A DNA stretch of 64,000 nucleotides from Candidatus Eisenbacteria bacterium (GCA_018831195.1 JAHJDP010000056.1:1-64000); one strand, 5' to 3'. Counted from the stretch's first letter, positions 34,917 through 39,110 are shown. The notes: a model not told the origin generated them from the sequence alone. Translations and numbers: made by a program.

Positions 34917-36173
34917 TTACTCAGGGAGCCGGTAACAGATAACCTGCTGGGGCGAGGCCTCCTCATCATCTTCCGCTGTCAGGGTGCCGGACCCGAATTG
35001 AGCGGCCAAGGCATCGATGAAACCGGTAACCAATACAACTCTTCTGTTTCCGAGGAAGAAAAGAGTATCGCTCAATCCATTCCCCTCACCGGCGAAAGAG
35101 ACCTGTTCAATGAAATGTCCGCCGGCGTCAAAGTGATCATAGGTCGCTATGATTCCTTGCGGCTGATGACGGCAGCCGCGGCTGGTGAGGACCCAAAGCT
35201 GGCCGTCGGGGGTGACCTGAAGCCCCCGTTGGAAGTGGGCGATAGCGGGCTCGGTTTCTTCGAGATCAAAGGAGACCTGGAGGTTAGGATTGGCGACGGC
35301 GCTCTCATAGAGCCGCCGCAGCCGGTCGGTATCCGCTTGTTCACGCTTCAGTGGTTCGTAAGCGCGTTCAATGATCCGCTCGACCTTCCCATCCGGAGAG
35401 AAGACGGTGATGGCATATTGATCGCGATCAGCATAAACATAAGTGCGCCCATTGGCGTCGACGCCGAAGCCCCACCAGAAAGAGGGCGTATGCTCTTTTT
35501 CGATGAATGTGAAATTGTTAAAATCAAACATTGAGTTCAACGTCATGTAGTTGGCCGTCTCTTCTCCGCTCATCTTGAAACCAGACAGGAAATAGATTCG
35601 TTTTTGGGTGCCCGGTGTGTCTCCGGGTTTCGATATTTCCCCGGAGATCACGATATGATCCCCTCCGCCGGCGGCGGCGGTCAGGCCTGTGAACCCTCCC
35701 TCCGTCGGCTTTTCGCTGCCGGGGATGAGTGAGCCCTTTGGGTTGTTTTCCATGTCGACCATCGTGATCTTGCCCGGAAACTCCTCGACGCAGGCGACGC
35801 TGCCATCGGGCATTAGAAGCATATCGCGGGGGCCTTGAACCTCCCCTGGTCCCTCACCTTGCCGGAAGAGGGTTTTTAAAAGTTCGCCGGTGGGGGAGTA
35901 GATATGAACATGGCAAAGCTGCGCATCGAGAACATAAACATTTCCATCGCTATCGCCGCAAATCTTGCTGATGAGACCGAAGAGGATCTCCTCGTCCTCA
36001 CCCCCGATCCGCCAGACCTCTTCCAGGTTGACCGTCTTAACTCCCTGGCTCGGTGAAGCGCTGTTTTGTATATGGAGTACGCCGTCGATGGTTGTTTCCT
36101 TGCCGGCAAAGGCTGGACCGGCCAGAATCACGAAAATTCCCAACATCAGAAAATTCACTCGTCTTTTTAGCAT
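34917..36173 (-). CDS. Secreted six-bladed beta-propeller-like protein
   Basis: 418 residues with a signal peptide (about 1-23, ending AGPAFA). Repeating blade-like units such as DSDGNVYVLDAQLCHVHIYSP, MLLMPDGSVACVEE, DANGRTYVYADRDQYAITVFSP and VTPDGQLWVLTSRGC are typical of NHL/TolB-like six-bladed propellers. Such periplasmic proteins are abundant in FCB bacteria, often as ligand-binding or carbohydrate-related proteins; no catalytic residues can be named. GGGAGGGG directly upstream supports the ATG. It is divergent from the RyR/AAA+ gene, with 222 nt between them. Confidence 0.8.
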   Translation of the reverse strand: MLKRRVNFLMLGIFVILAGPAFAGKETTIDGVLHIQNSASPSQGVKTVNLEEVWRIGGEDEEILFGLISKICGDSDGNVYVLDAQLCHVHIYSPTGELLKTLFRQGEGPGEVQGPRDMLLMPDGSVACVEEFPGKITMVDMENNPKGSLIPGSEKPTEGGFTGLTAAAGGGDHIVISGEISKPGDTPGTQKRIYFLSGFKMSGEETANYMTLNSMFDFNNFTFIEKEHTPSFWWGFGVDANGRTYVYADRDQYAITVFSPDGKVERIIERAYEPLKREQADTDRLRRLYESAVANPNLQVSFDLEETEPAIAHFQRGLQVTPDGQLWVLTSRGCRHQPQGIIATYDHFDAGGHFIEQVSFAGEGNGLSDTLFFLGNRRVVLVTGFIDALAAQFGSGTLTAEDDEEASPQQVICYRLPE

Positions 36174-36395: not shown

Positions 36396-39110
36396 ATGGA
36401 CAGCAAGAAGCGAGTTTTTGTGACGGGTGATTTTGTCTTGGACCACCACATATACGAAGGTGTACGGCATCATTATGCTGATTCAGGCGACGGCGTTCGT
36501 CATATTAGGGAGCTCGGCGGAGCGGCGTTGATTGAGAAGATACTTCGTTTCTTATTGGATGCAAAGGACGGCGACGATTCGCTTGTGCTGGGGACTGATT
36601 TCAAGATCGGTGATGCTTTGGACAGCAAGAAAATAACCCCTGATAACGATCAAGCCTATGCCATTTGGGGGCCGACGCTGAAGAATCCTGATAAGGAACC
36701 CAAGGTGTGGCGTGTCTCCTTTGAGATGGGATTTGGTGGCAATCGCTCGCAGCTGAAGAGAGTTGAATGGCCCAGTTCCAAAGAACCGCAAGGCCGGTTT
36801 GATGTGGTTGTCATCTCCGATGGTGGTCTTGGCTTTCGTGATAGCTCGAAGGAGTGGCTGGCGGACGCATTGAAGGAGGACGGGTGGATTGTCCTGAAGA
36901 CCGCGGCTCCCCTCCAGGAGGGGGCCCTTTGGTCGCAATTGTTAAAAGACCATTCGGATAGGCTGGTGGTCATTCTGTCCGCATCTGAGCTCCGGAAATC
37001 CAACGCGCAGATCAGTTCAGGGCTCTCTTGGGAAGAAAGTCTTGAAACGTTGGGAAGAGAGATCGTGAAAGATGGCGCGTTGGATCAACTTCCGAAATGC
37101 CGTCATCTGATTGTTGCTTTTGAATCCGAAGGCGCGCTTTGGATTGATTTGAATGAGCGCCCTAAGCTTGAAAAGGGAATGTTGGAAAAGGTCGTTTGCC
37201 ATTTTATATATCAGGCATCCGGGATTGAAGGAGATCATCAGCGAAGGTCCAAGGGACGTGCTTTCGGATTTCTGTCGTGTCTGACAGCCGCGATTGTTAA
37301 GCCTCTGGTGCGCGGCGGTGCTGTCGATTTTAGTGCCGCACTTGAAGGCGGACTTTCGGCCATGCATGACCTGCTCGAAAATGGACACGGTCCCTCTGAC
37401 TATGAAGCGAGCGGTTTTCCGGCGGAACGATTGGCCGGAGTGATCAATGAGGCAACATGCCGCTACTCCCGTGCCGTGCTGCCCTTGTCGTCACTTTGTG
37501 AGAAGCCGACTTGCCCGGATAGTGTCACCGGTGTTTCTTCTGAATCCGGGGGGTGTTGGAGTTTACTGCGTGAGGTTCTCAAGTCCAAGGACTGTGAATG
37601 TATAGATCCGGCCTATGATCTGGCGAAACTGGTCATCCGTCATGGTCCGATTGCGCTGGAGAGTCTTCCTCACCTGCGCATGAAAGCCCTCATGAGTGTC
37701 GATCGCCGGGAAATTGAGGCTTTGCGCGGTTTGGAGCGTATTGTTCAGGAATACGCTGATAGAAAAAAGGCGAAAAAACCCCTTTCGATCGGTGTTTTCG
37801 GCCCTCCGGGTTCGGGAAAGTCCTTCACGGTGAAGCAGTTCGCCCAATCTCTCCTTGGCAAGGATGGCTGGATGGAGTTCAACCTCTCGCAGTTTTCCGG
37901 TCCAGAGGATCTGAATGGAGCGTTCCATCAAATTCGCGATGCGGTCCTGAGGGGCCTTGTGCCCGTCGCTTTTTTCGATGAATTCGATGCTCAGGAATAC
38001 AGATGGCTGCAATACCTGCTGGCCCCCATGCAGGATGGATATTTCCAGGATGGGCAGATTACACATCCAATAGGGAAGTGCATCTTCATCTTTGCGGGCG
38101 GAACGAGCCGCTCTTTTGAAACTTTTGGACCTGTGAAGCCCGGCAATAGCCATAATCCGGGAAAGACCTCCTTCCAAATAGAAAGGGAAGAGATCGAGTA
38201 CCGAGTTTTCAAGTTCGCCAAAGGGCCTGATTTTAAAAGCCGGCTTGATGGGTTCCTGAATATAAATGGTCCCAACCGGCGTTGTCTCCCCGCTGAAGAA
38301 GTTGATTCTCCAGATATCTGCGACATCTTCTTCCCGATCAGGCGGGCTTTCATTACGCGAGGGGAATTCAATTGTGAAGCTCATACCCGGCTGAATATCG
38401 ATGAAGGCCTATTGAATGCCATCGTGGAAGTCGAGAGCTATAAACATGGGTCGCGTTCTCTCGGCAAGGTTCTCGATCCGTTGAAAGCCGCCCTTCCCGG
38501 CGCCCTCTATCGGTCCCTGATTCCCCCCCGGGGACAATTGGCGTTGCACACCGATGCCGACGCATTTCTTGAAAAATGTCGTCTGGCGGAACCGACTGCT
38601 CCCATCGCCACTTTCAAGGATGACGCTGATCGGCTTAGGGCCGCCAAGGCCATTCATGACACATGGCAAACACTCGGTGTGGTTCAGGGCTGGAAAACCA
38701 AGGATTCAGTCGTTCCATTCGAAGAATTGGCAAAGTTCTGGAAGAATTCAAATCTGGCCGCGGCCGATCGCATGGCGGAAATCCTGAGTCTTGTGGATCT
38801 CAAGCTTGAGGAAGGCGGGATAACGGACGACCAGCGAAAGTTTGTCCTCAACAAGATTGAGTATCATCTCGAGCTGATGGCCGAGGTGGAGCATGCCGGC
38901 TGGATGGATTGGCACCTGGAACAGGGGTGGATATTGGGTCCTAAAAAAGACAAGGATCTGAGGGTGGCGCCAACGGCGAAAAGTCATCCTTGTCTCCGCC
39001 CGTACACCAAACTCTCAGATCTCGAGCGAAACAAGGACCGCAACTCCATCCGGCATTTCCTTGACTTCGCGGAAGCCGGAGGTATGAGGATTGTGCCGGT
39101 ACGGAGATAG
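36396..39110 (+). CDS. Multidomain protein: PfkB-like domain, AAA+ ATPase, C-terminal RyR domain
   Basis: 904 residues, no signal peptide. The N-terminal part (about 5-290) looks like a divergent PfkB/ribokinase or HldE-type fold: VFVTGDFVLDHHIY, ELGGAALIEKIL, DVVVISDGGLGF and HLIVAFESEGALW are the corresponding landmarks. A poorly recognised linker (about 290-455) leads to an AAA+-type P-loop domain with Walker A GPPGSGKS (469-476) and Walker B AFFDEFDA (525-532). The C-terminus (about 825-895) is a ryanodine-receptor repeat: EHAGWMDWHLEQGWILGP, KSHPCLRPYTKL and ERNKDRNSIRHFLDF match the family closely. RyR repeats in prokaryotes occur with NTPases in conflict or signalling proteins; a ligand-gated ATPase sensing a sugar or nucleotide is my inference. 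Ribosome site AAGGAG is 5 nt before ATG. Monocistronic, no partner gene next to it. Confidence 0.8.
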   Translation: MDSKKRVFVTGDFVLDHHIYEGVRHHYADSGDGVRHIRELGGAALIEKILRFLLDAKDGDDSLVLGTDFKIGDALDSKKITPDNDQAYAIWGPTLKNPDKEPKVWRVSFEMGFGGNRSQLKRVEWPSSKEPQGRFDVVVISDGGLGFRDSSKEWLADALKEDGWIVLKTAAPLQEGALWSQLLKDHSDRLVVILSASELRKSNAQISSGLSWEESLETLGREIVKDGALDQLPKCRHLIVAFESEGALWIDLNERPKLEKGMLEKVVCHFIYQASGIEGDHQRRSKGRAFGFLSCLTAAIVKPLVRGGAVDFSAALEGGLSAMHDLLENGHGPSDYEASGFPAERLAGVINEATCRYSRAVLPLSSLCEKPTCPDSVTGVSSESGGCWSLLREVLKSKDCECIDPAYDLAKLVIRHGPIALESLPHLRMKALMSVDRREIEALRGLERIVQEYADRKKAKKPLSIGVFGPPGSGKSFTVKQFAQSLLGKDGWMEFNLSQFSGPEDLNGAFHQIRDAVLRGLVPVAFFDEFDAQEYRWLQYLLAPMQDGYFQDGQITHPIGKCIFIFAGGTSRSFETFGPVKPGNSHNPGKTSFQIEREEIEYRVFKFAKGPDFKSRLDGFLNINGPNRRCLPAEEVDSPDICDIFFPIRRAFITRGEFNCEAHTRLNIDEGLLNAIVEVESYKHGSRSLGKVLDPLKAALPGALYRSLIPPRGQLALHTDADAFLEKCRLAEPTAPIATFKDDADRLRAAKAIHDTWQTLGVVQGWKTKDSVVPFEELAKFWKNSNLAAADRMAEILSLVDLKLEEGGITDDQRKFVLNKIEYHLELMAEVEHAGWMDWHLEQGWILGPKKDKDLRVAPTAKSHPCLRPYTKLSDLERNKDRNSIRHFLDFAEAGGMRIVPVRR

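Follow-up and report, generated by a model that had tools for sequence, protein, structure and literature searches.

Animal ryanodine receptors carry RyR repeats (PF02026) in tandem in their R12 domain, and whether cyclic ADP-ribose (cADPR)-type nucleotides act on these receptors through the R12 repeats is an unsettled question raised by a recent preprint on phage proteins (PMC13232231, May 2026). In that work, binding and cleavage of 2'/3'cADPR were demonstrated for phage RyR domains. RyDEP, the gp78 protein of mycobacteriophage DyoEdafos, cleaves 2'/3'cADPR by means of H75 and D117, with W78 stacking on the adenine and H100 on the phosphates, and it belongs with other phage RyR-domain anti-Thoeris proteins; six of eight phage RyR homologues tested bound cADPR isomers and did not cleave them (PMC13232231). 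Thoeris itself pairs a TIR protein (ThsB) with a SIR2-SLOG protein (ThsA), in which SLOG is the receptor module and NADase activity the output. Here we describe a gene of Candidatus Eisenbacteria bacterium (GCA_018831195.1) that combines these elements in another way. The window analyzed comprises 64,000 nucleotides (JAHJDP010000056.1:1-64000), and the gene (36396..39110, plus strand, as are all of its features given below) is an open reading frame (ORF) of 904 amino acids with an ATG start and no internal stops. It encodes a predicted pseudo-ribokinase/AAA+/tandem RyR protein, which we read, at a probability of about 0.5, as a signal-gated ATPase of a TIR/NAD-type conflict (immune) network.

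The single 904-residue chain with three domains in this order, as proposed by the initial annotation, is borne out by the ORF, by AlphaFold2 and by Foldseek. The full-length protein was modeled as a monomer with a predicted local distance difference test score (pLDDT) of 90.1 and a predicted template modeling score of 0.90, from an alignment of 60 rows that left out plasmid-derived ones. One Foldseek search with this model returned three folds: ribokinases (7c1x and others), Clp/FtsH AAA+ proteins and R12 of human RyR3 (6uhh and 6uhi). On these models, an architecture of ribokinase fold, Clp/FtsH-type AAA+ module and RyR repeats is near certain, and both ends of the chain have the predicted folds that had been suggested for them. 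No effector domain was found within the 904 residues. NCBIfam and PADLOC gave the protein weak P-loop matches alone, the Thoeris models of PADLOC did not match it as ThsA or any other described effector, and no model of Pfam, NCBIfam or PADLOC covers the protein or its family. Identities as mad8 and as bpMoxR of the MoxR-vWA ternary conflict system were rejected, the matches being weak and confined to the P-loop region; bpMoxR reached 24 bits against a cut-off of 27, and vWA is outside the top neighbor families. The family was undescribed in the papers searched, including a search for RyR with PfkB and TIR, which did not cover one 2015 paper on nucleotide-centric conflict systems. The new elements are the way the domains are joined, the RyR tandem, the lost kinase chemistry of the head and a measured link to TIR; bacterial RyR domains, TIR signaling and AAA+ motors are already known separately.

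The canonical RyR repeat occupies residues 811-904 (38826..39107) by PF02026 and the family profile, with the PF02026 match at 819-899 (E 2.4e-12, 47.4 bits against a cut-off of 27.4). Aligned to it with hhalign, residues 736-808 (38601..38819) emerge as a degenerate first repeat (probability 99.1, E 7.7e-19) that has kept H754 and has lost the tryptophan and the H..P loop. The RyR fold expected at the C-terminus is therefore present, but as a tandem like that of animal R12 rather than as one 75-residue repeat. PF02026 also scores twice per ORF in many relatives, and the family profile built on the second repeat matches animal ryanodine receptors with an E value of about 5e-51. None of 14 well-known control genomes has PF02026. 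The likeness to R12 lies in the two repeats in tandem; the bacterial protein differs in having no channel, a degenerate first repeat and soluble fusion partners.

The residues that hold the ligand in RyDEP are conserved. In a direct alignment of gp78 with the present family, H75, W78, H100 and D117 fall in invariant columns, and the two share the R12/PF02026 fold (hhalign probability 97.6). The second repeat is present in 69 rows of the family alignment, two of which are truncated at the later three positions, hence a sample of 67. H833 and W836 (38892..38903) correspond to H75 and W78 of RyDEP (His in 69/69 and Trp in 65/67 of the repeat-bearing rows), H864 (38985..38987) to H100 (58/67) and D881 (39036..39038) to D117 (66/69); a six-to-seven-residue insertion precedes H864 in the query and its nearest relatives. 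All four residues are kept in 55 of the 67 rows with a complete repeat, and most of the others differ at the H100 position alone. It is likely, given this conservation, that the second repeat binds an adenine- or ADP-ribose (ADPR)-type nucleotide. RyDEP is a small stand-alone phage homodimer, whereas the present protein is cellular and carries two repeats in one chain, preceded by a pseudo-ribokinase and an AAA+ motor. It does not belong with the stand-alone phage anti-defense enzymes of the RyDEP type: its chain is cellular and multidomain, the scan of viral contigs found no relatives, and phage records matched the RyR domain only. As a separate observation, RyR-repeat matches ranging from weak to clear (E up to 1) occur in 253 phage records, many of them in proteins annotated as hypothetical (e.g., NC_031045.1, NC_073674.1 and NC_014636.1).

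The center of the chain is a Clp/FtsH-like AAA+ module (about residues 437-730; 37704..38585), identified by Foldseek matches to ClpC, ClpA, nucleotide-binding domain 2 of ClpB and FtsH, and by Pfam AAA at residues 467-532 (23.7 bits against a cut-off of 21.2). Its catalytic motifs are essentially invariant across the 83 rows of the family alignment. Walker A, GPPGSGKS, stands at residues 469-476 (37800..37823), where it had been placed from the sequence, with G469, G474 and K475 in every row and S476 in 82. Walker B, VAFFDEFD, stands at residues 524-531 (37965..37988) rather than 525-532, with DEFD in all 83 rows. With GKS in 82-83 rows and DEFD in all, the motifs are not chance matches. Arg616 (38241..38243), invariant in 83/83, is a candidate arginine finger, and G-S-R-S at 685-688 (38448..38459; R687 and S688 in 82/83) resembles a sensor-2 motif. 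The protein shares the Walker motifs, sensor 2 and an invariant arginine with Clp/FtsH-type unfoldases, which carry Clp N-domains or proteases where the present family has RyR and ribokinase partners. The AAA+ part would be expected to form a hexameric ring and to hydrolyze ATP.

Neighborhoods were counted in 82 family loci, as the initial annotation had advised. TIR domains occur in 27 of them, SLOG-like proteins with a GVTGHR motif in 23 (a label that rests on the motif, since Pfam gave no match), DUF4062 proteins in 17, proteins with two transmembrane (TM) segments, TrkA_N and RyR in 14, sigma-54/RtcR-like regulators in 13 and RelA_SpoT-TPR-LSDAT(SLOG)-RyR proteins in 9; DUF4062-NACHT proteins also recur. 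The association with TIR was measured against 181 TIR_2 domains in 203.5 Mb from 40 genomes, the expectation being drawn from the density of each genome itself: 29 TIR domains were seen in 0.76 Mb of loci (40 loci, 20 of them TIR-bearing) where 0.72 would be expected, an enrichment of about 40-fold. A hand count of Pfam TIR_2 within the locus ranges gave about 28, so the enrichment does not depend on our own profile. In an unbiased Pfam scan of the nearest neighbors, TIR_2 was the commonest domain (10/104), followed by STAND-type ATPases (AAA_16, NPHP3_N), sigma-54, TrkA_N, DUF4062 and RelA_SpoT. The catalytic glutamate column of the TIR domains holds Glu in 37/39. SLOG is the tightest partner: in 13 loci its gene is on the same strand and separated by at most 250 bp, and one locus (L058:9812-13366; locus numbers are ours) encodes a natural fusion with a SLOG-like domain at the C-terminus (residues 1001-1168 of 1185). 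The gene order pseudo-ribokinase/AAA+/RyR protein, SLOG protein, two-TM TrkA-RyR protein recurs in L056, L068 and L079, from Ignavibacteriota, Bacteroidota and Chloroflexota.

Several of these neighbors merit description in their own right. The TrkA-RyR proteins are a second RyR family (L056:2716-4509, L068:8228-10018, L071:2885-4732, L088:4565-6415 and others) with two hydrophobic segments lacking a TVGYG-type filter, a TrkA_N (RCK-like) domain and a RyR tail; from their sequence they look like a nucleotide-gated membrane effector. The RelA_SpoT-TPR-LSDAT/SLOG-RyR proteins are found at L025:8703-11291, L018:4951-7521, L029, L032, L069, L075 and L088; a Nudix gene is also present in 8/9 of their loci, and the one such protein tested matched the PADLOC candidate PDC-S33. 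The GVTGHR-motif SLOG-like proteins, often directly adjoining the pseudo-ribokinase/AAA+/RyR gene, include L038:2603-4261, L070:5848-7572 and L056:2068-2682, none with a Pfam match and two also without a PADLOC match.

From the predicted domain folds, the residue conservation and the neighborhood enrichment, we infer the identity of the ligand, the assembly of a ring, its switching and its output. An infection-sensing TIR or TIR-like protein would produce a nucleotide derived from ADP-ribose, for example 2'- or 3'cADPR, which would bind the canonical RyR repeat through H833, W836, H864 and D881. The bound signal would alter the R12-like tandem and switch the AAA+ ring, and the ring would remodel a partner protein, with the effector acting in trans; candidate partners in sister loci are the SLOG proteins and the membrane TrkA-RyR proteins. 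We give even odds to a cADPR-type signal made by TIR proteins as the ligand, and consider it slightly probable on balance that ligand binding switches the motor. The initial annotation had supposed that the RyR repeat or the kinase-like domain senses a small ligand and switches the ATPase: sensing by RyR fits the conserved ligand residues, whereas gating stays at the level of a proposal. Its suggestion of an effector in trans fits a chain devoid of any effector domain found and the TIR, SLOG, TM/TrkA-RyR and DUF4062-NACHT proteins beside relatives. The arrangement recalls Thoeris, in that TIR genes of relatives adjoin a predicted receptor for ADPR-type nucleotides; the receptor here is RyR and the output module AAA+, with a candidate role in defense.

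Several observations weigh against a TIR-signaled ATPase. An alignable RyR repeat is missing from about 14 of the 83 rows, in some cases owing to a contig end, and three records with core pseudo-ribokinase/AAA+ relatives (L011:9677-11803, on a plasmid, and the genomes of L077 and L086) have no RyR domain. Because six of the eight phage homologues bind without cleaving, the ligand residues do not fix function. TIR-rich islands may collect unrelated systems. In its source genome, neither TIR nor SLOG nor another RyR turned up next to the gene, unlike the many relatives with an adjacent TIR; the genome has eight TIR_2 matches, and those listed lie on contigs other than C56.

The main alternative is signal removal, in which the RyR module hydrolyzes or soaks up a cADPR-type signal, damping or resetting TIR signaling, with coupling to ATP through the AAA+ part. 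RyDEP and its sponge homologues act in this way, the RyDEP catalytic dyad H75/D117 is matched here by H833/D881, and Nudix hydrolases, possible ADPR-clearing enzymes, occur in 11/82 loci. However, the other RyDEP homologues tested bound without cleaving despite high conservation (PMC13232231), a motor of 900 residues would be an odd sponge, and RyR further occurs in fusions with TM/TrkA and RelA-like proteins, for which sensing is the simpler explanation. We regard signal removal as unlikely. Less likely again is an energy-charge sensor, whose RyR tandem would read ATP, ADP or AMP and whose motor would be unconnected to TIR immunity: ATP and AMP-PCP are held in RyR3 R12 structures (6uhh and 9l90), but such a sensor leaves the 40-fold TIR enrichment and the SLOG linkage unexplained. 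A hitchhiker in defense islands, or a housekeeping chaperone, whose neighbors are not functional partners would account for partnerless loci such as the source locus and for the 19 of 82 loci that lack any partner family, several of them on short contigs. Against it stand the 30/82 loci in which a same-strand partner lies no more than 250 bp away, the SLOG fusion in L058 and the three-gene order recurring in three phyla, and we hold this reading to be improbable.

The N-terminal head (residues 1-372; 36396..37511) bears on the weakest alternative. Modeled alone, it reached a pLDDT of 91.6, and the best 50 of its 181 Foldseek matches in the PDB (E of 1e-3 or less) are all ribokinase/PfkB-family kinases, led by 7c1y (E 4.5e-9). 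The template modeling scores of 0.32-0.57 across the matches listed mark it as a divergent member of the fold. At the sequence level the similarity is faint: hhalign against PfkB proteins gave E 2.4e-4 with a probability of 44, the profile matched only 1-phosphofructokinase among PDB sequences, weakly (E 0.18), and the PfkB models of Pfam and NCBIfam did not match the protein. Weak Pfam matches in this domain to TIR_2 (E 0.22) and a methyltransferase (E 0.08) were rejected after the fold search. The PfkB-like landmarks noted earlier are present (GD11-12, LD15-16, GGAA41-44 and SDGG141-144), and the substrate-side G11-D12, D16 and G41-G42 are conserved in 74 to 81 of the 83 rows. D16 itself (36441..36443), in the GD..LD sugar-binding motif of ribokinases, is Asp in 74. 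These motifs align with a PfkB protein of the same genome, at a weak score of 9 bits, and their positions presumably are the sugar-holding residues of ribokinases. By contrast, kinase chemistry is not supported because the catalytic aspartate is replaced. GFLSC (291-295) aligns by hhalign with GAGDT of PfkB enzymes, placing Ser294 (37275..37277) at the catalytic Asp, and this column holds Ser in 46 rows, Thr in 20, Ala in 7 and Asp in just 2. The head is very probably a pseudokinase. Near the NxxE position of PfkB kinases the family has a DDLR/SELR motif, here SASELR, with Arg200 (36993..36995) in 82/83 rows; the stretch is outside the hhalign coverage and the correspondence is our reading. 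Together with W212 (82/83), this family-specific arginine suggests a re-purposed pocket. With a ribose-type pocket kept and the catalytic base lost, the probable role of the head is to bind another ribosyl ligand or a partner, with no phosphorylation. A metabolic enzyme, in which a PfkB-family kinase for sugars or nucleosides has acquired regulatory parts, would explain the fold and the substrate-side motifs, but with the GAGD Asp replaced in 81/83 rows an active kinase is rejected and such an enzyme is very unlikely; the family also differs from ribokinases in its fused AAA+ module.

The family is large and widely scattered. A scan of genome contigs for close relatives with the single protein as query found none, while a three-member alignment searched against 84,980 species genomes recovered 100 relatives, of which 80 were kept, from 20 named phyla and including one archaeon. 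The tree requires 41 changes of phylum label where the least possible is 19, which is compatible with horizontal transfer without proving it, and a patchy, horizontally scattered family fits these sequences. In the tree, the query groups with L012 (68%) and with Oligosphaera L013 (54%), whose locus contains two TIR genes. In its own phylum, one other among 47 genomes has a relative including much of the AAA part (G009, a contig-end fragment), and a TrkA-RyR gene directly adjoins it. A full-length relative with 34% identity over 98% is WP_264051538.1 from a Methylobacterium plasmid, deposited as "RyR domain-containing protein"; such proteins are annotated by one domain alone, with neither function nor family model.

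A broader, tentative proposal, to which we give somewhat less than an even chance, is that prokaryotic cells employ the RyR repeat to receive cADPR-type signals made by TIR proteins, in AAA+ motor, two-TM/TrkA and RelA-TPR-SLOG proteins alike, as a class of receptor additional to SLOG and macro domains, of which the AAA+ family is one multidomain form; it would hint that animal RyR repeats descend from a sensor of ADPR signals. The family is a candidate for the cellular side of such signaling, its members being bacterial proteins that share those ligand residues and are genetically tied to TIR enzymes, and the ATPase of the fused motor offers an easy read-out. If correct, this would lengthen the list of TIR-immunity receptors and provide the first role for a large gene family that has no name yet.

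At the source locus, the gene lies downstream of genes for RNase HII, a UPF0102 protein and one protein without assignment, and is followed by a LysM/SLT transglycosylase gene. It is single-copy and has the one RyR in the source genome; five DUF4062 matches are on other contigs. The gene appears to be an orphan whose partners, if any, would act in trans. Its G+C fraction (0.526, against 0.543 for the window) gave no sign of recent import, and scans for promoters and terminators did no better than chance. Upstream, positions 34917-36173 of the window (minus strand) encode a secreted-looking protein of 418 amino acids with no Pfam match. Among the loci of relatives, the sigma-54 activators at L017:8131-9864, L055:12740-14452 and L083:9209-10939 are related to RtcR (PADLOC CARF_AAA_HTH models), and a 2,085-residue SIR2-family ORF adjoins the gene at the same position in a Methylobacterium plasmid and another Methylobacterium genome (L010:2314-8568 and L036:2314-8568).
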